A DNA stretch of 32,474 bases from a virus. Each line of letters opens with the position of its first letter. Positions within the stretch are counted from its first letter, which is position 1. The stretch spans positions 1-32,474 of IMG/VR virus record IMGVR_UViG_3300022200_003705; one strand, written 5' to 3'. Below the pieces are notes generated by a model that was not told the DNA's origin, ran no database searches, and saw only the letters and a list, made by a program, of their open reading frames with translations. Below, one piece after another: positions 12,347-29,525 of this stretch. Both the position numbers and the translations under genes were made by a program.

Positions 12347-12796
12347 TTAATTAGTGATAGTAGTGTAAGCAGTAGCTGCTGAAGTAGCCTTTACAATAAA
12401 AGGCTCTACTCCTCTAAGCCCAAGAGGCTCAGGAGTTAGGCTGCTTCCGTCCTTGATGGCTGACGTATTACCGTAGCTATCTACAATAACAATATCTCCC
12501 CCACTAGCCGCAACAGAAATCTGTCTTGCATTTCCCTTTGTAGTTTTTACAGTAGCACCTGTAAGCGCAACAGTAAATGGAGCATAAAGAATTAATTCAG
12601 TGTCAGAGTTCACGTAGTTTACTTTACGTAACTGATCGTTAGCTGCATCATATAAATAATCTCCTCCCTTTATATCTGCTAAGAAAGCAGTCCCTGTTCC
12701 GGTAACAATTTTATTTGTCGTGTTTGCGGTAACAGTTCCAGTAACTGTTCTAGATAATGGAAGTGTATCTGTAGATGTAAGTGTAATCTGTGGCAT
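12347..12796 (-). CDS. Small beta-rich virion/tail-associated protein
   Basis: 149 aa, Thr/Val/Ala rich and predicted all-beta. The section TVTANTTNKIVTGTGTAFLA, then GDYLYDA, then RKVNYVNSDTELILYAPF follows the pattern of short beta domains in phage baseplate and fibre proteins (VTGTGTxFxxxxxGDxI). It is the last gene of the late operon. A perfect -7 element (12815-12822) ends 18 bases before its ATG, so it may be expressed separately and strongly, as decoration or fibre-tip proteins often are. The assignment to the virion rests on fold pattern and location. Confidence 0.65.
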   Translation of the reverse strand: MPQITLTSTDTLPLSRTVTGTVTANTTNKIVTGTGTAFLADIKGGDYLYDAANDQLRKVNYVNSDTELILYAPFTVALTGATVKTTKGNARQISVAASGGDIVIVDSYGNTSAIKDGSSLTPEPLGLRGVEPFIVKATSAATAYTTITN

Positions 12797-12835: not shown

Positions 12836-15800
12836 CTAGATATTTGTAAATTTATATTTCTTTCGTTCAGGAGTCGTGCTGTCTTCTGTAGACTTTGTGG
12901 GTTTAACTTTGCTAGACTCCTTTAGATATTTTTTAATCAGTCCCTTAATCTGCCTAGTCATAGGTAATTGAGTACCTATAGACGTTAATCCTAGATTAGT
13001 TGCATTTATAGCAAGCTCTACCATCGTAGCAAGTTCTGGATCTTCTGTTATGTTTTCTGTTTTTTCTAGTAACTTTATGTTTTCTAGTAAGAATTCTAAT
13101 TGAGGTAAGGACTCTTTAAGAGCAAGTTGACTAGTTGAGTAAGAATTTGAAAAGTCTAATGGCTTGTAGATATAAAACTGATCTTTTAATATTTCAGCTA
13201 TTAATTCTTTAGCCTCTTTGTCATCAGTATAGCGATACGCTAAGGATAGGCTAGTTATTGCAGATAGTCTTCCTATTTTACCGTACTTAGATAAACCTAA
13301 AAAGGATACTTGACCTACTAAATTAGTAGCCATAGCTTTTATATCAAATAATTCTTCGTACTCCTGTATTGCTTTTTCCTTGTCGTCATCGTCCCCAAAA
13401 GTTAATTGTTGAGCAATGTAGTATAGGGACATTCCATAAGAATAAGCCATAGCGTTAAATAATACTCCCGATGCATTCCTTAATTCTGCGGAATCCATAC
13501 TCTTACCTTCTGTAACAAAATCCTTTGCAATGAACTTCAGAGATGTAAACAATTCCCCTTGCTCTCTATATACGTAGTTCCCAAAGAATGATACCACCTT
13601 CCCAAAAACAGAGTCTGCCTTTATTGTAGCTTTACTGAACGGTACTTCCAAATACCTCCTTGTCCCAGCTTTAACTTTAGAGTCCTGAATACGCTCCACC
13701 ATTTCCTGTCCTACTTTTGCAGACTTTAGTAATGCGTCTTTATTTTCCTCCATATAAGTCTTATCATTCAAGTATAAATCCAAATTTAAATCTGAACCTG
13801 TCAACTTTTTAAATTCCGCCCTCATAGTAGGCAAGAAAAGCCCTACAGCACTGTAGTATTCTGGAGCAGACATAACTTGCCTTCCTAACTTAACATAGAA
13901 TATCTCTTTATCTAATCCCTCTCTAATATTCTGTCTTGTTTTCTCAGAATCTAATTTCTCTGCTACAGTTATATCAAAATCCTCTTTGATTTTATCGAGT
14001 GTTATCCAAGCCTTTTTATCAAATACATCTGTTATACCATTAATTGAACCTGTCTTTATTACCGATGTTAAAACTGCGGATGTAAATTCTACTACACTCC
14101 TTATTGGGTCAAACAGCGTCTTGGCATATCTAGCACCGAATAATGCATTAGCCAATTTCTTAACTGCAGTATCACCCGCTACCTCTGCTTGATAATTTAA
14201 TGAATCGTTAAAATCGTTCTTAATAGCTATGGCTACAGGACTATTCTCTGTCTGGTTTACAGCAGATGTTAGCAGGGCGTTAATAGCAGGTTGATTAATG
14301 CTGAAGCTGTAGTCTAATGCTACGTCCGATATATGGTCTACTACAATACTATTTAAGTCAAAAGAGAATACCCCTACAATAGGCAGTAATGACTCTGTTA
14401 ACTTCTCCTTACCTGCACTAGCAAGTGTATTTAGATTACCATACCCTGCAATTGGCGGGGTGGACGAGGCTCTCTTACTGCCGCCCTTCCTCTTAGTCGG
14501 TAAATACATTATTCTAGGGGTAAATTCAGACCCCCTACTTAGGTTAGCCGCTTCCTGGTAAGATGCCGAACTGTCAAACACCTCTCTTGCAGCATCATAC
14601 ATCTTTTTTTGGCTTTCGGATAAAACCTTTTCTGCATCTAAATTAGCTACATCTACATAGCCTAGCCTGCTGTCTACTAATTCAGAGTATATCTCTTCTA
14701 AAGCCTTTATCTCTTCTTTAGAATAATTTGCTAAAGCTTGTTTATCTTTAAATTTAGCCTTAGTTTCTTCATCCATGCCAACAGCATCCATGGCTTTTTC
14801 ATTCCCAAGCCATATACCAAATATATCTCTTGCGCCTACAGGTACTCCGTCAGCCTTTATACCTAGGCCAGCTTTAAATTGCTCCTGTATATAGTGAGCA
14901 ACTATACCCGCTTTATTAGAATCTTTTATAAACTGTTTTCTAGCAGGGATATTTAGTATAGAGGGCATACCTCCGATTATTTTTGAGTACGGCTCTATCA
15001 GATTATTAGCTAAATTTTGGGCTGCTTTTGTTAATGTAATCATAGGTTGATATACATTATTCCAAATAGCCTTATCTCTTATGTTTAATATATTTCTAAC
15101 TCTCTGCGAAGCAGTCTTTGTGCCTAATTTACTTACTAAGTCTTTTGTATTTGTCTCTTTAGTGTCTGCTGTTTTAATTGAATCTGCTGTTTCTTTTGCA
15201 GCTTTTGATTTATAGGCAGAATAAGACTTAAGGTCTGATATAGCTTTGTAAGGTATAGTGCCTAAAGAAATAGAGTCTAATATATCATTAGCCATAACAT
15301 ACCAAGATATATCATCAACAGCCTCTGCATCCAATAAAGATTGGACTACCCTTTTCTGGGCGGGGTCTGATGGCAGATTTACTTGTTTTTTGGCTTTATT
15401 GTACTTAGCTTTCTCCCCCTCCTTTATTTTCTCTACCTCTTGATCATACTTCTTTGCAGCTTCTGCTAGATCTTTTCTGAGTTCCTCTGCTTTAGTTTCA
15501 TCAATATCACCATTATCTAGGGCTTTCTTAATTGCATTACTTGCCTTTTTTAAATCCCCTTTTACTTTCTTAGCTACTTCAAACGAGTCAATTGTTTTTT
15601 TCTTGAAGTCAATTGCAGTATCCGCTTCCAATTCCTCAATTAGGTTTTGACTTACTTCTTCTTCTGTATAAGATAGTTCAGCTATAAGTCTCTGTCTCTC
15701 TAGTTCTGCGTTAAGCTCTTGTTGAAGGGTTTCTGCCTCAGCTCTTTTTTTAGTGTTGTTTGAAACCCTATCCTTAAAAGATTTTTTCTCTACTGTCTTT

Positions 15801-18800
15801 TCTTTAGCCTTTTCTACTTTAGCAATTACTTCATTGATATCGTTAATAGTTAACTTTGGTGCGGACTTTATTAATTCATCTGCAATAGCTGCTACCTCTT
15901 CTAATAAGGCCATATCAGTTATCCCCTTGAGGTTAATTCGTGAGAATGCCTTAGCCGCTTGACCTAAAGTAGATTTACCTTTTGCTCTAGCTGTATTTCT
16001 GACCTTCTTGGTAGTTTCTCGTACAGCCTTGTCTGTGCTGTACTTGTCCTCTATCTGCTTTGCTATTTCAGATAACTCCTCTAATGCAATATCTACTGAT
16101 TTTTGGGTGTTAGACTTCCTTACTTGATTAAGGATTGTATTGACCTTAGCTGTTGGTATATCCTTAACTCCGTTTTCCCTTAAGCCCTTAATCAAAGAGT
16201 TAGCAAATCCTACAAGCAAATCTTTCTGCTCTTTTAGGGATTTACTCTTTTCCTTAGCCTCCTTTAATTTATCTTTGTAAGATTCTGTAACAGCTTTTAT
16301 CTTAGCTGCTGACTTCTCTTTCATTGCCTCGGTATACTCTACAAAGCCTTGCTTGTTTCTTTCTTTCTCTGTTAAGCCTTGTGTTTCTGAGGTTACCGTT
16401 TTAGCAGCTACTTTTTCTTGACCTTCTTGGGCAGTGACTTCAGGTTCTTTTTGTTTAATTCCTCTAGATATCTTTTTAACTATTGGTAACTCTCTTTGTT
16501 CTTTTACTTTGTTTGCAATGTTCTCTATTTCAGATATTTTAGATTCAACACCATTTATATCATTGTTTAGTAAATCAACAACCAAGTCTCTTGCTAATCT
16601 TTGTTCTTCGGTGTAAGTATCTATAGCTTTATATTCGTTTAAGGTTTTTGTTAATATATCGTTATAAAACCTTTTTGCATAGTTCCAACCGTCTATAGCG
16701 TTTGTAAATCTCAAGTTTGATTTAGAAAATTCATCAAGAGTTTTTATATCATTTGGTATGTCCTCAAATCCTTCTTTGCTTTTGGCTACCCATTCTTTTA
16801 TCTTTTCTATTTTCTCTAAAATATATTTAGAATCTGGATTTTTACCTCTGCTAGACAACTCTCTTAATATATCTCCAGCATTCTCTACTTTTTCTCTAAA
16901 AAAATTAGCTTCTCCCCATTTGTCTTTCTCTTTTCCAACAGTTATTTCTGCTGTTAGGTCTTGCTGAGAAAAGGCAGTGCCAAAATTTATTTCTTCTTCT
17001 TTGACGCTTTCTTCGGCAGTGACTTTAGTTTCTGCTTGGGGTTTTCCTTCCGCCATTTTTTCGCCAACTTGGGCTTCTGGCTGTACAGGTACTTCACTTG
17101 TTGTTTGCTCTTGAACGGCATTCTGTTGTGGTTTTAAAGACTCTAGTACAAATTTCTTAAACTCTATTTCTGTTACACCAGATGCTTTTACCTTTTCGTA
17201 TTGAAATGCGATAGCATCCTTTAATGACATCCCAGTCTTATATGCAGCTCTAACACCCTTTAGGGCTAAATTAGCTGCTGTATAACCTAGAACAGTAACT
17301 ACGTCATTAGCTTGTCCTCTGAGTGCAGTAAAGCTAGTTCTTTCGATAGCCTTATCAAGAGCGGCTAAAATCCTATCTTCAGATTCTTTTCTAGTGTCTT
17401 CAATAAGCTTCTCGGCCTCAGATAAATTCTTATTATCCGCCATTGTCTGCTTCCTCTTAAACTGAGAAATAGCTGTTTTACGTTCTTCCGTATCTCTAGT
17501 AATACCAATTAACTTCCCGTCAGCTCTCATTTTAGATACTGAAAAAGTTCCGTCTGGTTTTCTAGTTACTTGGTATATGTTTCCTTTTACTAAAACAAGA
17601 TCTTTATCTTTTGATTTACCTACTGCTTCATCTTCTACAGCCTTTACAAAGTCTGCTGTTTCCTTTTCTATATTCGCTATTTCAGCTTCCAACTCTTTCT
17701 CTATAGATTCAGCGGTATCTTCTTGTATATCTGGCTTATCTTTTGTTGGAAATGTTGGGGTAGGGACGGTTAGTACGGGTGGCTTTGGTCTGCCAATAAA
17801 CTTTCGCTTTTTTGGCTCCGGTTCTTGTTCTTTTTCTTTAAACTCTCCTACTGAATTATCCTTAGCTATTTGTTCTGCGGAATCTCCAGTATATCTCTTT
17901 GTAGTGCCGTATACTTTGTCCCCTACCTTAAGTGGCTTTTTTCTATTGTTTTGTAAATTCTCAATATTATCCTTGGTAACCACTATTCCACCAATTACCT
18001 CTTTACCTTTAACTACCCTACTACCGTCCTTTTTAACTGTGTCTCCTACTTTAAGTGGGACTTGTCTGTCGCTTTGTAGTTCATTAATATTATCCTCGGT
18101 AACTTCTATTACCTCTTTAGCCTTTACTACTCTGCTACCATCTTTCTTTTGTTCTATAGATATAATCTCATAGTTCTTACCTCCATCAGATACCACTCCC
18201 TGCTCTAATACTTCTGGAGCTTGAGTTGTTTTTTCTTCAAATGCAATTTCATCCTCAAGTGCTAATAACTCTTCGTCAGATATTTCAAGATCATCTAGGC
18301 TGATAACATCTGTATCGCTTTGTACAATAGGTTTTTTTGCAGCCCCCTCTAACTTTTTAGCCCTTTTATCCTCTAAATCGCTGATGGCCTTATCTTTTTC
18401 CGCCCTTAACTCAGCTACTCTTTTACTTTCTTCTCCATACTTATTGATCGCCTTATCAATAGCATTGTCAAATGTTTCGGTAGCCTTTTGTACACGAGAA
18501 TCAAACAGGTTGTTAACCTTATCGGCATCTGTCTTTACTTCTTGTGTGTCTCCGTATTGCTCTACTGTTGTAGTTTCTTTTGCCTTGCGCTCTTCAGCCT
18601 TTTGTCTTATCTGTTCCTCTAAGGCTTTTATCTCTTCGTCTATCTGTTCCTTAGCAACGCCTTTTTTATTCTTGGCTTCTTCTCTAAGTTCTGTTAGTCT
18701 TATTGCGGGGTCTAGTACTTCCGCAGACTCTTCTTCCGTGAAGTTACTTGGTATTTCAGAAACAGCCTCTGTAGACTTAGCTACTTTATTTAGGAATGCC

Positions 18801-20737
18801 TCTGCATCTTCTTGCTTAACTACTCCCTTTTTAACAAATTGAGTTATTACTTCTTTTGCTCCATCAGGGTCTTTACTGGCTTTAAGAATCATTTGATTCT
18901 CAATCTGCTTTCTCTTGTTTAAACTTACTATAGCCGGAATTGTACCAGAAGCCACAGTGGTAGTTGCAACAGTATTAATTACTTCACCTAATTCAGGAAC
19001 GTAAACTTCTACATCTTCATTTTCAAGGGCTATAGCTCCTGTTTGAACAGTCTTTCCTGCCAGTACTAGAAGCTCTTCTAGGTTCTCTTTACCAATTATC
19101 TCCCCTATACTTTTCAGTGCTTCTTTTGCAGCAAAACTTCTACCCTTAGAAAGGTTAGCTGCGAATACCTTAAGTGCTATATCTTTAACTTCTTTTGAGA
19201 AGATTTGATTATCAGGCATTATAAGCTCTGTAGTACCTTCCAGGAACGACATGAATTGCGTGTAAGCAAAAGCATCCCCACCACTAAGACCCATTTCCTT
19301 AGCATCTCTACGATTACTTTCTAACGAAGCAGCATAGCCACCAGCAACAGTATAAACATTCTTAGAAGAAGTTACTATAGCATCTTTAGCGAATGATGTT
19401 AATAATTTACCCTCAGTAGAAGCTATAGCAGTTCTTCCTGCGTATACGTTGCCTAAAGCTAGGGCAGCTATTATACCAACCTGATCCGAAGCACCTAAAA
19501 AAGCACCGCCTAAATCATACTCTCCAGTTTGTTCATTATAGAACTGTCTCTCACTTACAAGTAGTGGATTCTTATATGTCTTGTCTGCATAGTCTAATAT
19601 TCTATCAGATATAGTGTATAAATCCCCTCTGCCTGTAAAATCTTCAAAGCTGGAGGCAATAGTAGCTGGGAGAGTTATTAAGTCTATAGCTACATTATTT
19701 AAACTATTCAAAGCTCTAGAAGCAATATCTTGCGAAAAATTACCAGCTCCACCTTTATTTAACTCGTCTATTACTTCTTGGTCGCTTCTTATCTTATCTA
19801 TAATAGGCTTATTCTCTGTTTGAAGATTTGTAAATTTTGCGTAGTCGTTTACAAAATCCGTCTTCTTCTTCTCAGCTGCTACATACCCTTCAAAATCTGT
19901 AGGCTTATCCATGTTCTCTAACTCAGATACCCCGTTAGCAATCTTATTCCTTAGGTACTCAGACTGAATAAGAAAAGCCTCTTCATTATCTATTGGTTTA
20001 GTTTTCTGTAATTGTGTAGAGAATTGCCCTTGTCTATATCTTGCTAATCTTTCGGGGTCATTAAGTAATTCAAATCTCATTTTTTGATTAAAGCCTTGGT
20101 CTCCTATCATCATAGGAAATGCTTTATCAATAATGCTGTTTAATTCTTTATCTACATCTGTCTCCCATTTTTGCATTGGAGGCTGTTCAGCAACAGCAGC
20201 GTCAAATTTTGCCTGTTCGTTTGCTAAAAGTGCTTTTTGAGCTTTTTCTAAATCCTCTTTAGGGATCTTATCTTCTTTCGGTATCTCTTGTAGTTTTCTT
20301 CTTACTACTCCCTCAAAACTAGAATCATCTTTTACTTTTACAAACCCAGCTTCTTCCTCAGACCTTCTTACATCTAAAGGTTCGAGTGGGGGTGCTTCTT
20401 CGTCTTTTTGTATTGGCTTAAATTCAGGTTTAGTAGATAATATATCTTGTACTAATTTATCTATTGCTAATTCCTGATCTGTTTTATTTACATCTTCTCC
20501 ACTCTTTACAGAAGGCTCCGATGATACCTGTTGAGATGAAGTGCTTGTAGGCTGCTCTTGTGGCTCTTGCGAGCCGTTGGTAAAATTTTCAGGTTCGCCC
20601 TCCTCGCTTGCAAATTTTTCAAAGTATTGAGAAGCCATGCTTTTTATTTCGTCAGCAGAGTACCCTGCCTCTTGCATTTTAGCCGCATTACTATTAAGTT
20701 GTTCTACCTGTTCTGGTGTTAATTTTTTCTCTTTCAT
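12836..20737 (-). CDS. Giant internal/ejection-type virion protein (2633 aa)
   Basis: 2633 aa, by far the largest gene here. Residues 1-150 are low-complexity and disordered (PQEQPTSTSSQQ). Hydrophobic segments occur near 420-440 (VGIIAALALGNVYAG) and 587-602 (TVATTTVASGTIPAI). About 640-1800 is Lys/Glu/Ala-rich, helical and coiled-coil, interrupted by a tandem 38/41-residue repeat at 864-942. From about 1800 to the end the chain looks globular and helical, with further hydrophobic stretches near 2420-2482 (FNAMAYSYGMSLYYIAQQ). This architecture resembles giant 'polyvalent' phage proteins that are packaged and injected with DNA, and the gene position corresponds to T7 gp16 or P22 gp16. No transglycosylase, protease or RNA polymerase motif was recognised. 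It follows the 484-aa gene with one base between. Confidence 0.75.
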   Translation of the reverse strand: MKEKKLTPEQVEQLNSNAAKMQEAGYSADEIKSMASQYFEKFASEEGEPENFTNGSQEPQEQPTSTSSQQVSSEPSVKSGEDVNKTDQELAIDKLVQDILSTKPEFKPIQKDEEAPPLEPLDVRRSEEEAGFVKVKDDSSFEGVVRRKLQEIPKEDKIPKEDLEKAQKALLANEQAKFDAAVAEQPPMQKWETDVDKELNSIIDKAFPMMIGDQGFNQKMRFELLNDPERLARYRQGQFSTQLQKTKPIDNEEAFLIQSEYLRNKIANGVSELENMDKPTDFEGYVAAEKKKTDFVNDYAKFTNLQTENKPIIDKIRSDQEVIDELNKGGAGNFSQDIASRALNSLNNVAIDLITLPATIASSFEDFTGRGDLYTISDRILDYADKTYKNPLLVSERQFYNEQTGEYDLGGAFLGASDQVGIIAALALGNVYAGRTAIASTEGKLLTSFAKDAIVTSSKNVYTVAGGYAASLESNRRDAKEMGLSGGDAFAYTQFMSFLEGTTELIMPDNQIFSKEVKDIALKVFAANLSKGRSFAAKEALKSIGEIIGKENLEELLVLAGKTVQTGAIALENEDVEVYVPELGEVINTVATTTVASGTIPAIVSLNKRKQIENQMILKASKDPDGAKEVITQFVKKGVVKQEDAEAFLNKVAKSTEAVSEIPSNFTEEESAEVLDPAIRLTELREEAKNKKGVAKEQIDEEIKALEEQIRQKAEERKAKETTTVEQYGDTQEVKTDADKVNNLFDSRVQKATETFDNAIDKAINKYGEESKRVAELRAEKDKAISDLEDKRAKKLEGAAKKPIVQSDTDVISLDDLEISDEELLALEDEIAFEEKTTQAPEVLEQGVVSDGGKNYEIISIEQKKDGSRVVKAKEVIEVTEDNINELQSDRQVPLKVGDTVKKDGSRVVKGKEVIGGIVVTKDNIENLQNNRKKPLKVGDKVYGTTKRYTGDSAEQIAKDNSVGEFKEKEQEPEPKKRKFIGRPKPPVLTVPTPTFPTKDKPDIQEDTAESIEKELEAEIANIEKETADFVKAVEDEAVGKSKDKDLVLVKGNIYQVTRKPDGTFSVSKMRADGKLIGITRDTEERKTAISQFKRKQTMADNKNLSEAEKLIEDTRKESEDRILAALDKAIERTSFTALRGQANDVVTVLGYTAANLALKGVRAAYKTGMSLKDAIAFQYEKVKASGVTEIEFKKFVLESLKPQQNAVQEQTTSEVPVQPEAQVGEKMAEGKPQAETKVTAEESVKEEEINFGTAFSQQDLTAEITVGKEKDKWGEANFFREKVENAGDILRELSSRGKNPDSKYILEKIEKIKEWVAKSKEGFEDIPNDIKTLDEFSKSNLRFTNAIDGWNYAKRFYNDILTKTLNEYKAIDTYTEEQRLARDLVVDLLNNDINGVESKISEIENIANKVKEQRELPIVKKISRGIKQKEPEVTAQEGQEKVAAKTVTSETQGLTEKERNKQGFVEYTEAMKEKSAAKIKAVTESYKDKLKEAKEKSKSLKEQKDLLVGFANSLIKGLRENGVKDIPTAKVNTILNQVRKSNTQKSVDIALEELSEIAKQIEDKYSTDKAVRETTKKVRNTARAKGKSTLGQAAKAFSRINLKGITDMALLEEVAAIADELIKSAPKLTINDINEVIAKVEKAKEKTVEKKSFKDRVSNNTKKRAEAETLQQELNAELERQRLIAELSYTEEEVSQNLIEELEADTAIDFKKKTIDSFEVAKKVKGDLKKASNAIKKALDNGDIDETKAEELRKDLAEAAKKYDQEVEKIKEGEKAKYNKAKKQVNLPSDPAQKRVVQSLLDAEAVDDISWYVMANDILDSISLGTIPYKAISDLKSYSAYKSKAAKETADSIKTADTKETNTKDLVSKLGTKTASQRVRNILNIRDKAIWNNVYQPMITLTKAAQNLANNLIEPYSKIIGGMPSILNIPARKQFIKDSNKAGIVAHYIQEQFKAGLGIKADGVPVGARDIFGIWLGNEKAMDAVGMDEETKAKFKDKQALANYSKEEIKALEEIYSELVDSRLGYVDVANLDAEKVLSESQKKMYDAAREVFDSSASYQEAANLSRGSEFTPRIMYLPTKRKGGSKRASSTPPIAGYGNLNTLASAGKEKLTESLLPIVGVFSFDLNSIVVDHISDVALDYSFSINQPAINALLTSAVNQTENSPVAIAIKNDFNDSLNYQAEVAGDTAVKKLANALFGARYAKTLFDPIRSVVEFTSAVLTSVIKTGSINGITDVFDKKAWITLDKIKEDFDITVAEKLDSEKTRQNIREGLDKEIFYVKLGRQVMSAPEYYSAVGLFLPTMRAEFKKLTGSDLNLDLYLNDKTYMEENKDALLKSAKVGQEMVERIQDSKVKAGTRRYLEVPFSKATIKADSVFGKVVSFFGNYVYREQGELFTSLKFIAKDFVTEGKSMDSAELRNASGVLFNAMAYSYGMSLYYIAQQLTFGDDDDKEKAIQEYEELFDIKAMATNLVGQVSFLGLSKYGKIGRLSAITSLSLAYRYTDDKEAKELIAEILKDQFYIYKPLDFSNSYSTSQLALKESLPQLEFLLENIKLLEKTENITEDPELATMVELAINATNLGLTSIGTQLPMTRQIKGLIKKYLKESSKVKPTKSTEDSTTPERKKYKFTNI
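17912..18148 (-). repeat. Tandem 38/41-residue repeat inside the giant virion protein
   Basis: Unit 1 (18148 to 18035) encodes residues 864-901; unit 2 (18034 to 17912) encodes 902-942. Both begin KKDGSRVVK, pass through KEVI and DNI..LQ, and end PLKVGD.V; unit 2 has a three-residue insertion. Nucleotides are also similar, so the duplication is not ancient. The closing GD.V resembles small SH3/KOW-like barrels. Confidence 0.85.
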
Positions 20738-20738
20738 T

Positions 20739-22193
20739 TTACTCTATTACTACATTTGCGTTTTCGTCAAACTTAATAGCAGGTTTTGCTGCATCTTGTA
20801 TTTTAAAATCTACTTTATAAAACTCTTGTAAATCTTTTGACTGTGTAGGGGTAACTGGTATATATTTAACTCTACCGCCTTTAGTAGATGTTGATGTAGT
20901 AGTCTTACCACCTTCCTCATCTGCTTTTCCAGATGAAGTAGACTTAGACTCAGTTACTGCTTCTTGCATAATTAATACACCCTTACCAGAATCATCTAAT
21001 ATCACAGATAATGGCTTTCCTGTAACAACATTTCCATCTTGGTCAGCAACTTGATATTCTGGAAGCCCCTTACCTGCTTTATTAGCACTTATTCTAAATC
21101 TGTTTGAATTTTCTGTATTAAGTCCTATGTCTTGTATAGCTTTTGAAAAATCGTCAGCAGTAGTCTCAGACGGTTTACCACCTATAATGTTTAATCCTGT
21201 AACATCTGTACTGCTTGGTGCATTTTGAGGACTTGTAGTACTTTGTTTATAATCTTGTTCAGGTAAATCTAAGCCCGCTGTAGGGTTTTTTATGTCAAAT
21301 TTAGAACTGCTTACACTATAGCCCTCTGTTTTATCTTTTGCAGCTTGTGTAGCTGCTGCTTTTTCTCTTGCTGCTGCTTGTGTATCAATTATCGAATCTT
21401 GTTTTGTCTGGCTTTCTGGTAATAGGTTTGTGATGTACTGCCTCTTCCAATCGTTAAAACCCTTTCCTCCTGCAAGTCCTCTAGAATTAAGATCTGCGTA
21501 CGTAGATGCGAATCCTAGACCTCCCATGTTTTCTATCGCATTTGATAGATCCTTAAATTCTGTGGGGGATAATTTAGAAATTGTCTGCTTAGTCAACATA
21601 CCGTAGTTTGAACCAAATAGCTTTACCTGCTCATCTGCCCCAAGCTTGTTATAGTCAGTAACAAATTTTAACATAGCTTCGTCATCCAACTTAACAGCAG
21701 CAGTCATGTTACCAAATTTGGGGGCTGCGCTATATAAATCGTCTACTGTTAAATCTGGGTTTAATATGGTATTTCTGTAATCTTGTTTTCTATTAACCCA
21801 ATTACCATTCTCGTCTTGCTCTATAATCTGACCTTCTGATGCAGCAGCAGTAATAGCATTCTTGTAATCATTCTGAACCTTAGCACCATACCCTGCAACA
21901 CCTCTAGCCTCAGCTAAAAAGTCGTAGTTGTATGGATCAATCTCTCCGTTTCTTACTCTCTCTATAAGTTCATCTCTTTTAGCTTGAACATCTGCTTGAA
22001 TATTCTTAGGAAGACCAAGAGCATTTATTTTTGCTAAGTCTTCCGCTAATTTCTTCTGCTCGTCATTCTTTGCTTTAGACTCTAGGTAATTTCTTTGATT
22101 CTGAGCTAAAGCAGCTTGATCGCCTAAAGTATTTGTTATAGGACTGTATTTGGCTGTCCCGCCTATCTGTGCTACACTTGCTAATTCTGCCAT
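20739..22193 (-). CDS. Internal/cargo-type virion protein (484 aa)
   Basis: 484 aa. Helical N-terminal half with few hydrophobics (KNDEQKKLAEDLAKINALGL, then KRDELIERVRNGEIDPYNYD). The middle (about 265-340) is Ala/Ser/Thr/Gln-rich and probably disordered; a small beta-like unit (NRFRISANKAGKGLPEYQV) follows, then a Ser/Thr/Lys tail. It lies between a glycine-rich 262-aa protein and the 2633-aa giant, with eight bases and one base to its neighbours. By order it matches the medium member of the three ejected proteins in T7 (gp14-15-16) and P22 (gp20-7-16 set). No enzyme motif. Its role in the ejected complex is inferred from context. Confidence 0.7.
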   Translation of the reverse strand: MAELASVAQIGGTAKYSPITNTLGDQAALAQNQRNYLESKAKNDEQKKLAEDLAKINALGLPKNIQADVQAKRDELIERVRNGEIDPYNYDFLAEARGVAGYGAKVQNDYKNAITAAASEGQIIEQDENGNWVNRKQDYRNTILNPDLTVDDLYSAAPKFGNMTAAVKLDDEAMLKFVTDYNKLGADEQVKLFGSNYGMLTKQTISKLSPTEFKDLSNAIENMGGLGFASTYADLNSRGLAGGKGFNDWKRQYITNLLPESQTKQDSIIDTQAAAREKAAATQAAKDKTEGYSVSSSKFDIKNPTAGLDLPEQDYKQSTTSPQNAPSSTDVTGLNIIGGKPSETTADDFSKAIQDIGLNTENSNRFRISANKAGKGLPEYQVADQDGNVVTGKPLSVILDDSGKGVLIMQEAVTESKSTSSGKADEEGGKTTTSTSTKGGRVKYIPVTPTQSKDLQEFYKVDFKIQDAAKPAIKFDENANVVIE

Positions 22194-22201
22194 AATATTA
22201 T

Positions 22202-22990
22202 TTATCTAAAAATACTTTGAGATGGCCCAAATGGACTATAATTTTGTGATAGTGATTGTGGGGAGTTGTAATTAAGTGCTGGCTGTGTAAAGTTCTGATT
22301 AGCCTGTACATAACCTGGAGTAAATGTAGACATCTGTTGTTGAACAGGTGTAGTCAATGACGGTAAGCTTGCGCTACTTGCTCCAAAAGGATTTACAGCA
22401 GCTTGTGTTCCACCTAAGAATGTTCCTGCATTTGCTACGCCACTAGTAATAGATTGTAAGCCGGCTTGTTGTTGCTGTATACCTTCTATTCTTCTTTGTT
22501 GGGCTGTTGCTAAATCGTATTGGTTAAGTTGTTGTACCTCTCCGTAAGTCTGTTGACCTCGATTAGCCATCTCCCCTAATACCATCTGTGCGTTCTGCTG
22601 TCTTGCAGCTACATCCGCTAGTCCAATTTGAGAGTAGGCATTTGCTAAACCTGAAGCTGCTCTACCAATACCAACTAAACCACCTCTTCTGTCATCAGAT
22701 ACAGACAGACCTACACCAGCTGCTCTATCAGCACCTTGTTGCATAGCCATCATCTGTTCTTGTGGGAGTCCTACGCTTTCTCTTCTTTGGAGTTCATCGT
22801 AGTACATCTGATTGTAGTCAGCGTATTTTGTGTTTGCTATCTCTTCTCTTGCTGCAAGTCTGTCTTGTTCAGCTTGTTTAGCTACTTGTGCGCCTTTAAT
22901 GGCCCCGTATATTCCTAGCCCTGCTTGCACAGCACCACCAGCTAATCCAGCTGCCATACCTACGGGTGTTAATGATGTTAATCCTGCCAT
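22202..22990 (-). CDS. Small internal virion protein with membrane-active N-terminus
   Basis: 262 aa. Residues about 8-32 form a Gly/Ala-rich hydrophobic helix (GMAAGLAGGAVQAGLGIYGA), similar to N-termini of podovirus ejection proteins proposed to form a pore in the host envelope (T7 gp14-like). The body is helical and Gln-rich (DVAARQQNAQMVLGEMANRG), and the end is a Gln/Asn/Pro/Ser-rich flexible tail (YNSPQSLSQNYSPFGPSQ). A perfect -7 element lies upstream at 22999-23006, so the three ejection genes may also be transcribed apart from the tail genes. Function inferred from composition and order. Confidence 0.7.
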   Translation of the reverse strand: MAGLTSLTPVGMAAGLAGGAVQAGLGIYGAIKGAQVAKQAEQDRLAAREEIANTKYADYNQMYYDELQRRESVGLPQEQMMAMQQGADRAAGVGLSVSDDRRGGLVGIGRAASGLANAYSQIGLADVAARQQNAQMVLGEMANRGQQTYGEVQQLNQYDLATAQQRRIEGIQQQQAGLQSITSGVANAGTFLGGTQAAVNPFGASSASLPSLTTPVQQQMSTFTPGYVQANQNFTQPALNYNSPQSLSQNYSPFGPSQSIFR

Positions 22991-23023: not shown

Positions 23024-26000
23024 CTATCTTGTATAATTGGACATTAAGTAATCGAAATTAGTTGATATAATCTTGTATATCTTGCTTGTTCCTTCTTTGA
23101 TAACCAACCTAGTCTTCTGCCAATATCCTCTTACCTTATCTCCTTCTATAAAGTCAGAGTAGGTTGTACCTGTTCCGGTACGCATATAGTCAAAGTAAAG
23201 TTGATTCTCTTTGTAAGCGGGGGTAGCACAAGTACTTATCTTACCGCTTGAATCCTCAACACCTCCGTCAATAGGATATGCAGAAGATGTAGTGTCTGTT
23301 GCTGCGATTGCAACTTCGAAGTCTGCCTCATCTATGACATCTCCGTCTGTTGTTGCCTTTACTCCAAGAGTTTTCCAAATCTTTACTTGATCACCGTTCT
23401 GATTAGATACTAGGTCAAGGTAAGCAGGGTATTCTGTTCCGTAATACTTTTGTGGGTTTGCATAATCATCGTGTATCCACAACTCCCCCGCTTTAAAGCT
23501 AACAAACTCTAAGCCTGCACTTGCCATGTGTTCCGGTATCCATGAATGGAACGAACTCCAAGACTTAAGTCTTTCAGAGTAAGCCAATGTAGTAGCCTTG
23601 TATGGGAATATTAAGAATGGTGCAGGGAATAGCCCCGGAGTACCATTAAATAAAGCCTCTACAATGTTTGCTACGTTTTTATCTTCTGGCATTAAAAACT
23701 TAACCACATCTCCTGTAATATCTAACACAGATGCTGTGAAGTCCAAATAACCGTAGAAGTTACCACCTATAATCTCAGGCACAGACATCTCTACTGATTG
23801 ACTTTCATACAAGTCGTATTGGTCTATTCCTGTGATAGTTGTAGTCAATGTAATTCCTATACCAAACTCGGACACTACCGTAGCTGCTAAAGTACCCGTA
23901 CGATTTACTTGAGTAGGCCATTTCAGGGTAAGTACGTACTCCTCTGTTCTCTTGTCATAAGAGCCGTAAGCAAAGTCTTGTCTAGGGGAGTTTATCATAT
24001 CTCTGAAAACTTCCTTGAAGTACTTGTTCATTCCTTGGTCAGAGATAGGAGTTACTCCATCTTGAGATAGTCTACACACCTGTCCTTGGTCTACATCAAC
24101 AAAGTATTTTCTACTGTTGTTGTAAGCAAATGATTCAGGGTGTGTTCCTATTCCTGCGCGGGTGGAGTAGTACATGATGTCAGACAAAGGTGTGTTAGCC
24201 CCAATGGTCATGTTATTCTCATCTAAGGTAGTTACAACTGCTCTATCGCTTTCTGCAAACCCAGTCGAGTTTTCGTGGAACACTATTACTCTACTTCCTT
24301 CAGTGTGAAGTTTTTGTATAGATTTTAATGCCCCGTTCGCATCTTTAAAGTTAAGGTCATATATTGTACCAAGCCCATTGTAACCTTGATCAGGTAGAAA
24401 CGGCTCCGAGTATCTTATGGTTGTGGGTCTTTGAACCTCACCTAAGAATCCTGTAATGTCCTCTTGTTGAGATGTGGACTTAACACTTCTGTTTGGTCTT
24501 CCAGCACCCCATGTCTTAGATGCTACTTTATCATAGAAGTTAGATTCTTCTACAAAATAGTTAAATGTAGTTGAAGATGCAGTGGCTGCTAGATTTGAGG
24601 TATCTGCTTTAAAAACGTAAGTCCTTGGCTTAATAAAACAATCTCCGTTAGTTAGTTCTATTGTAGCTGATTGTGCTGAGTTTTGTGTCTGTATGTTACC
24701 TACGTGATAGTATCTACTATTTGCTGTATCTGCGCTGATTGCCCCTGTGTACATCTCGTAGTAGAAGTCCACTGTTTTTTCTCTTGTTGGGGAGTATATC
24801 TCACAAAGTAATCCACGTATAGCGGCTTCTCCACCATTACCTGCTTCATTTGCTTTAGCAAATACCCCACCAGTACCCACTAAACTAAGAGGTAAGTCGT
24901 TGGGTCTAATCGCAATAGCATTTAGTTCTGCGTCATAAAACAGTATTTCTGCATCTGCCTCTGAGGTATAGTACTGAGAAGGGGATGTAGGTATATGCGG
25001 GGCAGAGGATAATAGGTAATAGCACAATCTTATTCTATCTCCTTGACTATAATCATAAGCTAAGGGACATTCATTCAGATTTGTATACCCAACTAGGGAG
25101 TTTTGAAGAGAGCTTAAAGGGATATAGATTAACTCTGTATTATCTATTGAATCATAAGTAAGTGTTTGAGCTGTATCTGCTGAGTCTACGTTACTTACGT
25201 CTCTTCTTATAAATCCTCTGTAAAAGTACTTTGTGTCTAGTGGGTTTTCTGACCCATTTGATAATTTAGGTAGGCCCGTAACCCTACTTAAGGGGAATGA
25301 CACAAAATTATTTATTCCGTTTGAGTTTGTTTTAAGTATGTGGTATTTTGTAGCCCAAGATGGCGCATCGTGGCTAACATTTATCCTTGCGTATCTTTGA
25401 CCTATATCTGCAAATGTAGTACCTGCTGATGCTTGCAAGTCTTTCCACCATGGATTATAAGTAGATAATGATGGGTGTTCTATTGCAGTAGTTATTCTAC
25501 CGTAATCATCGCTGTAAGATAGTGCAAATGTCTGCTGGCTCCCTCTTTTAAATGACTGGATTAAATTTACAGTTACGCCAACTGAAGTTGTGGGCACAAA
25601 AAATATTACGCTAAATACTTTCCAAGTTCCGCTATCTGGGCCAGGGTAAGTTATTTCTGGTATTGTATCAACTACTAAATAACTGTCTCCCCCTGATATT
25701 TGGTAGGTTGCGGAAAATAGATGCGCGTTTACTTCTAGTTGTCCTGAAAATACATTATACTCATTACCTACTTTCCTGTAAGCGTCTAAAGTACTCGCAT
25801 AAAAATCGGAACCTTGATTTATCCTAGATACAAATTTATTTATTAGTGCGGATACAGATGAAGATTCTGCTAATATATTTATTTCAGAAGAAAAATCTGT
25901 ACCGGTTGAATAAGTGTCTCCTGTATAAAGTACTACAGCTCTTGCAGCTAAATTTATAGTGTAAATAACTCCAGCCTGTACTGTTGATGGGAACTTAAAG

Positions 26001-27490
26001 GCTATCCCAATTCTTGATGGGTCAGCTTGTCTAATTGTAGATGATCCAAAGTCTGTCTCTTCATAAACAAGAAACCCGCTTATTGCAGATGATGTATTGT
26101 AATACATATCTATACTATCTGAAGCAGTGTTGTATGGGTTGCCCCTTTCAAAAAATTCTACTTCGGGAGGTTTTTGGTTTATGTCCCTTTCGCCATCTAA
26201 GGTGTATGGCTTACCCTCTGTGAAGTTAGAGTAAAGTATTCTATTCTTAGATGTAATAGCTTGTGCTTGTGCTTTTGTTGGAATCCAAGACATTAACTGG
26301 CTTGACTCATTTGTATCTAAAGGCATTAATGCCTTACTGCCATCGAAGCTGTATTTTAATTGTAACTTTCCATTATAACTATAGTTACTGCTATCTATTG
26401 TAGGTATTTTTATAGCTAAATTCCAATCACCTGGAGAATCGTCATTCAATACTCTTCTTATTGCAACACTTATGCTTTTATAAATACTTGCATCTGGAAC
26501 ATCAATATAACATTCTATAGCGTTAAATAACAGACGTGCATTATTATAGGTCTGTATGTTTATAAGACTATCTATTTGCGTAGGGGTAGATATAAATTTT
26601 GTTACGGGACTCCAAGAGCTTTCTCTTCCGTCAGGCTTTATGTACTTAACTTTAAATTGATATAGATTTCCCTCTAAGTAATTATAACTAGCTCCTGTAG
26701 TAGAGTAATTAACTATAGGGGTAGATAGGTGCGGCTTTACGATATTAGTAAAACTTTCCTCTGTATGTATGCCATAGATGTACCCCGATGGGCAAAAGTC
26801 CCAATCCGATTGAGGATTTCTATATAGGGTAGATATAGTGGGGTCTTGTGACGTAGTTACATTTGCACGGTAATAAACTCTATGTGTAGTAGGTGTTCCC
26901 GCAGAATGGTCGTATATAACTATATTTCTGTAGTACACATTACCCTGTGCAACTTGTACAGGTGTAGTAGCATCAAAGTCTCCGTAGTACTTCTTATATG
27001 TAAAAATACCACTGCTTGTGTTAGTGTCGTATGTTCGGATACCCTGATCTATATTTATGTTCTTAGGTTCACCCCAATTGTCTGTAAATAATAGATAAGA
27101 TGTATCGTCTCCAGATATTACATCTATACCAGTAACAAGGTAGTTTGGGTTTAGGTCAAGTACGTTTCCCGTGTCTGCTATAATTGTATTTATAACAGAC
27201 TCTTTATAGTTATACGCTAGTATACTATTGTTACCCTCATCATTATATATAATGTAAATAACCCTGTCATTTGCTTCGTCATCATAAGCCCCTATGACTT
27301 TATTTGCACCCGATGGTAATGTGTGTGATATTAATCTATTACCCTCTGAATTTGTTATAGCACCAACTGCACCTTTCTCACTGTTACCATTTCTAATGTT
27401 TAGGGCATAGCGGTACATTCCCTCTTGGAGTAATGACTCCATAAGGTCTTGATTCATCCCCGCAGCAAAACTTCTCTTTTCAATCGGCAT
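23024..27490 (-). CDS. Tail hub/stabilisation ('muzzle'-like) protein, 1488 aa
   Basis: 1488 aa. The N-terminus (FAAGMNQDLMESLLQEGMYR, then YALNIRNGN and NSEGNRLIS) matches the start of the stabilisation proteins of Bacteroidetes podoviruses and crAss-like phages, related to P22 gp10. These build the lower tail and close the channel. The bulk is beta-rich, with repeated Tyr/Asp/Gly strands such as GAYDDEANDRVIYIIYN and DTSYLLFTDNWGEPKNI, as expected for propeller- or barrel-like domains. It follows directly on the 241-aa neck gene and precedes the ejection genes, the expected order. Relatives in crAss-like phages are often around 900-1500 aa, so this is at the long end. Confident as a tail structural protein; the exact position in the tail is inferred. 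Confidence 0.8.
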   Translation of the reverse strand: MPIEKRSFAAGMNQDLMESLLQEGMYRYALNIRNGNSEKGAVGAITNSEGNRLISHTLPSGANKVIGAYDDEANDRVIYIIYNDEGNNSILAYNYKESVINTIIADTGNVLDLNPNYLVTGIDVISGDDTSYLLFTDNWGEPKNINIDQGIRTYDTNTSSGIFTYKKYYGDFDATTPVQVAQGNVYYRNIVIYDHSAGTPTTHRVYYRANVTTSQDPTISTLYRNPQSDWDFCPSGYIYGIHTEESFTNIVKPHLSTPIVNYSTTGASYNYLEGNLYQFKVKYIKPDGRESSWSPVTKFISTPTQIDSLINIQTYNNARLLFNAIECYIDVPDASIYKSISVAIRRVLNDDSPGDWNLAIKIPTIDSSNYSYNGKLQLKYSFDGSKALMPLDTNESSQLMSWIPTKAQAQAITSKNRILYSNFTEGKPYTLDGERDINQKPPEVEFFERGNPYNTASDSIDMYYNTSSAISGFLVYEETDFGSSTIRQADPSRIGIAFKFPSTVQAGVIYTINLAARAVVLYTGDTYSTGTDFSSEINILAESSSVSALINKFVSRINQGSDFYASTLDAYRKVGNEYNVFSGQLEVNAHLFSATYQISGGDSYLVVDTIPEITYPGPDSGTWKVFSVIFFVPTTSVGVTVNLIQSFKRGSQQTFALSYSDDYGRITTAIEHPSLSTYNPWWKDLQASAGTTFADIGQRYARINVSHDAPSWATKYHILKTNSNGINNFVSFPLSRVTGLPKLSNGSENPLDTKYFYRGFIRRDVSNVDSADTAQTLTYDSIDNTELIYIPLSSLQNSLVGYTNLNECPLAYDYSQGDRIRLCYYLLSSAPHIPTSPSQYYTSEADAEILFYDAELNAIAIRPNDLPLSLVGTGGVFAKANEAGNGGEAAIRGLLCEIYSPTREKTVDFYYEMYTGAISADTANSRYYHVGNIQTQNSAQSATIELTNGDCFIKPRTYVFKADTSNLAATASSTTFNYFVEESNFYDKVASKTWGAGRPNRSVKSTSQQEDITGFLGEVQRPTTIRYSEPFLPDQGYNGLGTIYDLNFKDANGALKSIQKLHTEGSRVIVFHENSTGFAESDRAVVTTLDENNMTIGANTPLSDIMYYSTRAGIGTHPESFAYNNSRKYFVDVDQGQVCRLSQDGVTPISDQGMNKYFKEVFRDMINSPRQDFAYGSYDKRTEEYVLTLKWPTQVNRTGTLAATVVSEFGIGITLTTTITGIDQYDLYESQSVEMSVPEIIGGNFYGYLDFTASVLDITGDVVKFLMPEDKNVANIVEALFNGTPGLFPAPFLIFPYKATTLAYSERLKSWSSFHSWIPEHMASAGLEFVSFKAGELWIHDDYANPQKYYGTEYPAYLDLVSNQNGDQVKIWKTLGVKATTDGDVIDEADFEVAIAATDTTSSAYPIDGGVEDSSGKISTCATPAYKENQLYFDYMRTGTGTTYSDFIEGDKVRGYWQKTRLVIKEGTSKIYKIISTNFDYLMSNYTR

Positions 27491-28216
27491 TTAGTACTTA
27501 ATTGACTGGTTAATAGTTTTTCTTGATGCATTGTACATACTGCCTAAACTCTCCGAAGCAAATCTAGCCTTAGCGTGGTGCTTTGCATTTAAGTAGTCAC
27601 TGAATGCTATCTGTTTCTCTTGTGGGGCATAGCTTCTCTTAAACTTCATTAGCCTGTGGTGCAATCCTAGCTGTATAGCGTCCACCAAGAACGGATGCAC
27701 TTCATATTGCGCACCGACCTTACTTGGGTCGCTTAGATACTCTAATATTACGTCACCAGATACATTAGAAGAAAACTCAACTAGTCCTCTGTCCCAATCC
27801 ATTCTAAATTTATATGCACTTCCACCTACGTTGCCGTATTGTCTACCAATCACTTCTCCATTACGAACCATGTCAGACACAGTGTTTGGAGCAGACGGGT
27901 ATCCGTATTCTTTATGGGAGATAGTATTATCGTCTAAACCTATAATAAGTTTGTTGTCAGAAAATATTTCTACAAACTCTCCATTTTGATTCGAGAATCC
28001 CATTCTAATTACTCGAACTACATCTTGCGGGAGTACGGCTCTAGTAGAGTCAGTTATCTCAAGTGAAACTACTTTAGGTACTCCGGAAACATCATAGTTC
28101 AAGTCTTTTAGAGTTGATATGGCTGCTTGTAATGTACGAGGGTATTCGTGCATAGCATCTTTGCCCTGCATGATTAAATACTCTCTTACAATTGAATCTA
28201 ACGTATAGCTTGTCAT
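27491..28216 (-). CDS. Neck/tail-tube ring protein
   Basis: 241 aa. Begins SYTLDSIVREYLIMQGKDAM and continues with a helix (YPRTLQAAISTLKDLNYDV), a beta-rich centre (KVVSLEITDSTRAVLPQDVV) and a C-terminal helical section (IQLGLHHRLMKFKRSYAP). This layout is like the tubular/adaptor proteins (P22 gp4, T7 gp11) annotated in Bacteroidetes podoviruses next to the stabilisation protein. The stop is adjacent to the 1488-aa start and its ATG overlaps the previous gene by four bases. It probably forms a ring between portal and tail hub. Confidence 0.7.
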   Translation of the reverse strand: MTSYTLDSIVREYLIMQGKDAMHEYPRTLQAAISTLKDLNYDVSGVPKVVSLEITDSTRAVLPQDVVRVIRMGFSNQNGEFVEIFSDNKLIIGLDDNTISHKEYGYPSAPNTVSDMVRNGEVIGRQYGNVGGSAYKFRMDWDRGLVEFSSNVSGDVILEYLSDPSKVGAQYEVHPFLVDAIQLGLHHRLMKFKRSYAPQEKQIAFSDYLNAKHHAKARFASESLGSMYNASRKTINQSIKY

Positions 28217-28827
28217 CTATTATCTGTTTGAATATCTTTTGGGGCTTGCATTTGAACCCCTAATAGTTGTAATGCTAATTGTATAATTTCGTACTCTAGG
28301 TCAGCAGGTGCTGGCATATAATCATCTGGCTGTAGGCTAGTTGCATCAGGAATAAGTCTTACAAATAACTCGAAGTCTTGATCAAAGTCCGCTCCTTGTA
28401 TGTAAATTCTATCTCTCTCAGGAATGTAACCTAATTGGCCCTCTAGCCCGTATGAGTCTAGACCCCTGAACATTGAGTTAAATCCACTGTCAAGTGGGAT
28501 CATAAGCTCATCTATACAGTTTCCAGGAGCAACATGGTATATCCCAGCGTTATTGTGTAAAGACTCTAAAGTCCTAATAGGTAGGACAGCGTACCACTTT
28601 CTTTTTCTTGTGTCAAATGAGATATTTAGGTAGTACTCTCTAAAACAGTCGTAAGGTATAGTTTCAATCCCTTCTGACTTATTTCTCCAAATAAGCTCTC
28701 TCAGTACTTTATTAGTGGCTTGCCCTGTAGCAAGTATTGCTTCTTGTCTTGTAATCTTACTTCCTACAACTTTTTGACCATATAGCTTTTGTACTTGCTC
28801 TCCGATTCTATATATTGTGCTACCCAT
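28213..28827 (-). CDS. Neck/adaptor structural protein (204 aa)
   Basis: 204 aa. The N-terminal helix (YRIGEQVQKLYGQKVVGSKI) and a following helix (QEAILATGQATNKVLRELIW) precede a beta region (KWYAVLPIRTLESL) and an end section (DLEYEIIQLALQLLGVQMQA). Size, fold pattern and place between two other neck-type genes suggest one of the ring proteins stacked under the portal. Its start overlaps the previous stop (TAATG) and its end overlaps the next ATG (ATGA), so translation is coupled. No closer assignment can be made by eye. Confidence 0.65.
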   Translation of the reverse strand: MGSTIYRIGEQVQKLYGQKVVGSKITRQEAILATGQATNKVLRELIWRNKSEGIETIPYDCFREYYLNISFDTRKRKWYAVLPIRTLESLHNNAGIYHVAPGNCIDELMIPLDSGFNSMFRGLDSYGLEGQLGYIPERDRIYIQGADFDQDFELFVRLIPDATSLQPDDYMPAPADLEYEIIQLALQLLGVQMQAPKDIQTDNR

Positions 28828-29519
28828 TATTGTTGTTGTTGTTCTGCGCTACTATATTGGTATAAGTCTTGTTCTCGTAACTCAATACCCATATACTTGC
28901 AAATTTTAAATACTAAGTCTTCAAAAGCCTGTACCTCTATGTCTGTGCTGTTACCTGCGGTTACTCCACTGTTGGGGTTTGTAGTTACTCCCCCCGATTC
29001 AACAAATGTTGGCGTACTTCCGGACAATGTGTAGTTCCACCACGGCTGTGCTGGTACTTTTAAGTAAGTCAGTGTGATATTGCTAATCTCTGCGGGGTAT
29101 ACCTCAAAACTATTTCCAATGTGTCTCATTATAGGGAACATTCTAGTTGGCCTATTTACCTCCGAAGCAAGCCTTTCAGCCCATTCGTCATCCCTAACAA
29201 TCTCGATTGGAGAAACTCTACCACTACCTTTAAATATATAATTACTGTAAGCGTGACTATAATGAAGATAGTCTGAAGGTTTCGCAGCTTTGCCATTTAA
29301 TATTGTTATTGAGCCTGATTTCTTTATTGGGGATAGGGCATCTGAATTATCCAAAGTACTCCCGTAACCCATTCCGTCAAGGCGATTATAGTTTTCTTCT
29401 ATATAATCTCTTTGAGCAAACTCTAGGTATCTATTAAATTCTGCTGGGGAAAGTATCCCACTTACCTGATCCTTATTAGATAGTTGCTGTACTGCTTTAT
29501 ATATTTTGTCTATTAACAT
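28827..29519 (-). CDS. Neck/adaptor structural protein (230 aa)
   Basis: 230 aa. Begins MLIDKIYKAVQQLSNKDQVS with the helix ILSPAEFNRYLEFAQRDYIE, a pattern found in structural proteins near the neck genes of Bacteroidetes phages. Middle strands (IVRDDEWAERLASEVNRPTR, then NSFEVYPAEISNITLTYLKV) suggest a beta barrel. It ends in a run of glutamines (SSAEQQQQ) coded by TTG repeats on the plus strand. It is the first of three consecutive neck-like genes and shares a base with the next ATG. Confidence 0.65.
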   Translation of the reverse strand: MLIDKIYKAVQQLSNKDQVSGILSPAEFNRYLEFAQRDYIEENYNRLDGMGYGSTLDNSDALSPIKKSGSITILNGKAAKPSDYLHYSHAYSNYIFKGSGRVSPIEIVRDDEWAERLASEVNRPTRMFPIMRHIGNSFEVYPAEISNITLTYLKVPAQPWWNYTLSGSTPTFVESGGVTTNPNSGVTAGNSTDIEVQAFEDLVFKICKYMGIELREQDLYQYSSAEQQQQ

Positions 29520-29525
29520 ATACTA

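Follow-up and report, generated by a model that had tools for sequence, protein, structure and literature searches.

Which proteins does a crassvirus-related phage send into its host along with its DNA? The relatives of the crassviruses are very abundant, and the proteins that enter the host besides the DNA are largely unknown. The question is raised here by three adjacent genes in the window (the whole 32,474-base viral fragment that was analyzed), the last of which encodes a protein of 2633 amino acids (aa). We consider it quite likely that these are the genes for the ejection proteins of a crassvirus-related podovirus with a muzzle and that the giant is a modular cargo protein of the “polyvalent” type. 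As an ejection module, even one whose third protein is a giant, the set is ordinary; a modular injected protein that exchanges cassettes would be of more than routine interest.

Gene order behind the muzzle gene

A block of virion genes on the minus strand fills the right half of the window, and plus-strand replication genes, namely a DnaB/BT4734-like helicase, a family A polymerase, and a PD-(D/E)XK nuclease, occupy the left half. The virion block encodes, in order, proteins of 560, 230, 204, and 241 aa, a muzzle protein of 1488 aa, and proteins of 262, 484, 2633, and 149 aa. The muzzle protein (23024..27490; all window features given here are on the minus strand) matches crAss_MUZ in Pfam (6.7e-31) and phrog_14478 (7.6e-61). 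Two other genes encode virion structural proteins, probably ring proteins, at 28827..29519 (phrog_14543, 5.1e-22) and 27491..28216 (phrog_13977, 3.2e-14). In the list of open reading frames (ORFs), the 262-aa first protein lies at 22202..22990, in a position like that of gp14 in T7; the 484-aa second protein, like gp15 in position and size, at 20739..22193; and the 2633-aa third protein, placed like gp16 or a virion RNA polymerase (RNAP), at 12836..20737. The original prediction of these three ORFs in tandem was right in both lengths and coordinates, with the genes running from right to left. They are tightly packed, with 33 bp between the end of the muzzle gene and the 262-aa gene, 8 bp between the first and second genes, and a single base pair between the second and the giant.

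The same arrangement is seen in related phages. A muzzle-based tblastn search matched the Cellulophaga phages phi38:1 (Pervagoviridae) and phi13:2 (Pachyviridae) and the spring podovirus MW202828, in all of which the muzzle gene is followed by genes for a protein of ~200–300 aa, one of ~500–640 aa, and a giant (1691, 1990, and 3859 aa, respectively), in some cases with a few small genes interspersed. The small, medium, and giant products of phi38:1 and phi13:2 are annotated as structural or virion structural proteins, labels that presumably rest on mass spectrometry. Scanning IMG/VR by muzzle alignment gave 80 loci. Wherever the small protein could be recognized (39 of 39 loci), the medium gene follows the small one, usually less than 30 bp away, and a large third ORF is present wherever the contig extends past the medium gene. 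The three-gene set is far beyond chance. The 25 complete syntenic giants are 1368–3859 aa long, with a median of 2609 aa, and the size of 2633 aa is typical for the clade. This means that the earlier remark that the giant is twice as long as gp16 of T7 is true (gp16 has 1318 aa; PMC8954989) but not surprising.

Small neighboring genes vary around the set. The gene after the giant (12347..12796) encodes a 149-aa protein that is 32% identical to the product of the post-giant gene in locus L007, and L028 and L040 have genes of similar size there. Many relatives carry a gene for ~132–136 aa between the muzzle gene and the small ejection gene (L004 24042–24452, L005 18985–19383, L041 11948–12358, and L064 16734–17144) that is absent from the window. 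We read its product as GNAT-like in two annotated phages; one copy is annotated as an acetyltransferase subunit, and the phi38:1 copy as a structural protein.

Three-gene ejection operons encoding a small, a medium, and a large protein are the rule in podoviruses, and the published sizes of the first two proteins are 181–240 and 431–982 aa (PMC8954989). T7 (gp14/gp15/gp16) and P22 (gp7/gp20/gp16) share with the window a small-medium-large series in a single operon towards the end of the virion genes, and the first two window proteins fall within or close to the published ranges. However, the window giant is twice the size of gp16 and has no transglycosylase, and neither a Pfam T7_gp14 match nor any detectable sequence similarity links the two sets. 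In the Schitoviridae, DEV (gp73-gp72-gp71) and N4 (gp52-gp51-gp50) also have three ejection genes with the giant last, and this third gene encodes an ejected RNAP of 3398–3500 aa (PMC10925440, PMC12633501), whereas the window giant lacks the RNAP signature. The crAss001 genes that follow the muzzle gene encode cargo proteins of 60–277 kDa (PMC10172136). Its gp45, gp46, gp47, gp49, and gp50 resemble the window set in lying directly downstream of the muzzle gene and in including very large cargo, but the window has one giant rather than three RNAP-related proteins, with no RNAP motif and no family match. The set also resembles that of phi38:1 (gp99-gp100-gp101) and phi13:2 (gp124-gp125-gp127), which have the same order and a homologous first protein, although their giants show no detectable similarity to the window giant.

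The first protein has a family that can be followed by sequence. An iterative hidden Markov model (HMM) search from the 262-aa protein gave 44 hits at the same position in about 40 loci, including phi38:1 gp99 and phi13:2 gp124, both annotated as virion structural proteins. The Pfam T7_gp14 model (PF24072) did not match the window protein and found nothing above the cut-off in 37 records; one relative scored E 0.0065 (11.5 bits), below the cut-off. An AF2 model, for which the small-family run used rows from the window and the IMG/VR loci only, consists mainly of helices at residues 21–72, 77–93, and 106–191, and this model (mean pLDDT 57.6) had no Foldseek match in the PDB. A Gly/Ala membrane-type helix had been predicted in this protein. 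The Gly/Ala stretch is indeed there, at the N-terminus (about residues 3–34), but the protein is only weakly hydrophobic (its Kyte-Doolittle means over 19 residues reach 1.28), so the stretch is at most a possible membrane helix. Means stay below 1.5 in all three proteins, with maxima of 1.36–1.47 in the giant.

For the 484-aa protein, tblastn, iterative HMM, and hhalign searches returned no relatives, and none of the three proteins has a match in Pfam or PHROG. An ejection module, as in the original prediction, is favored by synteny, by the conserved 262-aa family, and by the order known from T7, P22, N4, and DEV; against it stand the lack of any relative of the 484-aa protein and, for the 262-aa protein, the weak hydrophobicity and the negative T7_gp14 and fold searches. 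We call the set ejection-module-like by position, since the gene order fits even though the searches assigned the proteins to no known ejection family, and family membership is unproven outside the 262-aa family.

Block exchange within the giant

The giant begins with an acidic, Ser/Thr/Gln-rich segment, is highly charged at about residues 700–1100 and 1400–1800, and has two more-hydrophobic regions, at about 210–640 and 1850–2600. Comparison with a related giant sets off a lineage-specific leader at residues 1–48 (20594..20737) from the block that the two share. This block, residues 49–729 (18551..20593), is 69% identical to the giant of IMGVR_UViG_3300022200_000131 (L002, L112), and the remainder of the two proteins can barely be aligned. 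Elsewhere, the window and L002 have in common only pieces of the muzzle protein (31–38%), a 77-aa gene (49%), and a 127-bp contig end. This mosaicism was the unexpected feature, and an exchange between phages otherwise so unlike each other is what host-specific injected factors would lead one to expect. Behind the shared block, or cassette, comes a charged, low-complexity middle (residues 730–1850; 15188..18550) with no zincin or other recognized domain, and then a C-terminal core (residues 2001–2605; 12923..14737) that also occurs in L092/L115 (24%) and, by profile, in L002/L097. AF2 modeling of residues 1850–2633 from five sequences gave helices at a pLDDT of 36 and no usable fold. Multiple alignment had hinted that the C-terminus shares ancestry with the giant bearing LPD38 or with the most frequent class of syntenic giants; hhalign values of 0.2–0.3% gave this no support, and it was dropped. 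The sole clear internal repeat observed in the giant, at residues 865–940 (17918..18145), is a ~38-residue unit (KDGSRVVK..KEVI...LKVGD) present in two imperfect copies.

Fourfold-degenerate sites in the cassette are 50% identical between the window and L002, which indicates that the exchange is old and that purifying selection on the cassette is strong. Searches of viral contigs, phage records, and GTDB genomes yielded no relative of the cassette apart from L002, and plasmids gave no significant match. A chimeric assembly at the cassette is formally conceivable; however, DNA identity to the donor-like sequence is no higher than ~78%, and the cassette therefore did not arise by simply mixing the two known contigs.

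Other pairs of relatives behave in a similar manner. As an example, the muzzle, small, and medium proteins of G022 (L041/L097) and G034 (L064/L103) are 88–89% identical and the other virion genes mostly 89–98%, and their giants are 76% identical over residues 1–89 and 74–78% over 846–2752 but unrelated over 90–845, with abrupt breaks at the DNA level. In L028 and L040, the head and ring genes are 94–100% and the small and medium proteins 43% identical; the giants are 66% identical over about residues 90–564 and unrelated over the other two-thirds. Among pairs with 65–80% head/ring identity, the median aligned share is 90% of the muzzle protein compared to 25% of the giant. The giants turn over faster than the remaining virion proteins. 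In both the window/L002 and the G022/G034 comparisons, the exchanged block sits in the same place, behind a leader of 50–90 residues. Two cases are too few to establish a hotspot, so a replacement slot is put forward as a hypothesis.

Enzyme domains in the counterparts and the role of the giant

The statement in the original prediction that the giant has no recognizable enzyme motif is borne out by profile and motif searches. No significant match was found in Pfam, PHROG, NCBIfam, PADLOC, or PDB sequences, and RNAP, lysozyme, and other enzyme domains were all absent, as were the HExxH and D-x-D-x-D motifs. The syntenic giants are richer. The HExxH zincin motif is present in 19 of 29 of them, compared to 0.13 expected from shuffles. 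Two carry a domain of the zeta-toxin/AAA_33 kinase type, located around residue 800 of one giant and around residue 2000 of the other, in blocks that are 48% identical; one carries LPD38, and LysM and GNAT matches occur in single giants. Among the domains of polyvalent proteins, zincin peptidases occur most often, and LPD38 is found only in the phage type (PMC5512222). With zincin, zeta-toxin/kinase, and LPD38 domains among them, the counterparts look like polyvalent injected proteins, so that, in this clade, the third ejection gene appears to encode proteins of that type.

How far does this apply to the window giant itself? The hallmark zincin motif and the one LPD38 of the polyvalent proteins (Iyer et al. 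2017; PMC5512222) occur in syntenic giants adjoining virion genes, and the window giant shares with such proteins its great size, its modular build, its place next to virion genes, and its shuffled blocks. In contrast, it has none of the catalogued polyvalent domains (effector, zincin, or LPD), and LPD38 in particular does not match it. The suggestion that it carries undescribed effector domains therefore finds indirect support in the counterpart domains and in the cassette-like behavior of residues 49–729, but none was recognized in the window giant.

One could consider a purely mechanical role instead, in which the giant is a long, gp16-like protein of the inner membrane or of DNA threading without any effector, and its fast divergence reflects adaptation to the host envelope and loose constraint. 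The missing enzyme motif and the long charged, helical stretches would suit such a protein, and gp16-like proteins do diverge fast and vary in their domains (PMC8954989). Gradual divergence, however, does not look like the clean replacement of a block in a similar slot between conserved flanks, and the zincin motifs in 19 of 29 counterparts, with kinase/zeta-toxin domains in some, also speak against this role; on balance we regard this reading as rather unlikely. That the giant is a divergent virion RNAP, as at the equivalent positions in N4 and DEV and among the crAss001 cargo, is very unlikely. Its position and size do match N4 gp50 and DEV gp71, and crAss-like phages have RNAP-related cargo of ~155–277 kDa, but the giant lacks the D-x-D-x-D/DFDGD motif and has no RNAP match in Pfam, PHROG, NCBIfam, or PDB sequences. 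By sequence alone, an ejected giant would look no different from a core or scaffolding protein inside the capsid that is never released. Since the giant is the third gene of a conserved, tail-proximal module adjoining the muzzle gatekeeper, and its counterparts have domains of the injected-effector type, we judge retention in the capsid to be very unlikely.

If the three genes do form an ejection module with the giant as polyvalent-type cargo, all three proteins would be stored in the head or tail, would leave partly unfolded and ahead of the DNA, and would link the tail to the cytoplasm. Going by position, the 262-aa protein may be an outer-membrane or early pore component and the 484-aa protein may belong to the periplasmic tunnel or bind the portal, with the 2633-aa protein as the giant cargo. 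In the giant, a short N-terminal leader would precede an exchangeable cassette (about residues 49–729), followed by a charged linker and a helical C-terminal body. The leader and body would serve packaging and threading, and the cassette and linker might act in or on the host, on either the envelope or immunity. More tentatively, the third protein may be a platform for delivering effectors whose exchange slot is fixed, with the leader and body staying bound to the lineage and a cassette of ~650–800 residues being swapped wholesale among phages, supplying host-specific injected factors of an undescribed type. Residues 49–729 of the window giant would be one of these. Should the giants prove to be modular injected effectors, alignments at the flank of the muzzle gene would offer a simple finder of unstudied counter-defense or envelope-acting domains, with the window cassette as a defined, testable example of a candidate injected effector.

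Contig ends and giant leaders

Positions 1–127 of the window are identical, over exactly 127 bp, to the end of the L002 contig, and contig IMGVR_UViG_3300025655_000715 (L003) appears to be broken at the same base. The shared ends are probably a branch in the assembly graph (k = 127), in which case the window phage and the L002 phage share sequence past the left end of the window.

The leaders of the giants have features of their own. A motif at the junction of leader and cassette, GS[LVI][ED], occurs in 7 of 29 giants (0.6 expected); it was set aside as evidence, being a post hoc observation and weak in the window. The first ~60 residues of the giants (L002, L004, L007, L040, L097, L098, and L103) often consist of a short motif of about 30 residues, running from Leu/Tyr-rich through Gly/Tyr to Phe, that occurs twice and is followed by a disordered linker. 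It is possibly a packaging or portal-binding signal. In phi13:2 (L006), the giant gp127 (24114–30086) is annotated with a TTG start right after an 87-aa ORF, gp126 (23839–24102), that resembles the leader of the window giant (LIDEGFSDEDIELYVQDF compared to MQEAGYSADEIKSMASQYF), and the leader and body of the phi13:2 giant may be split or misannotated.
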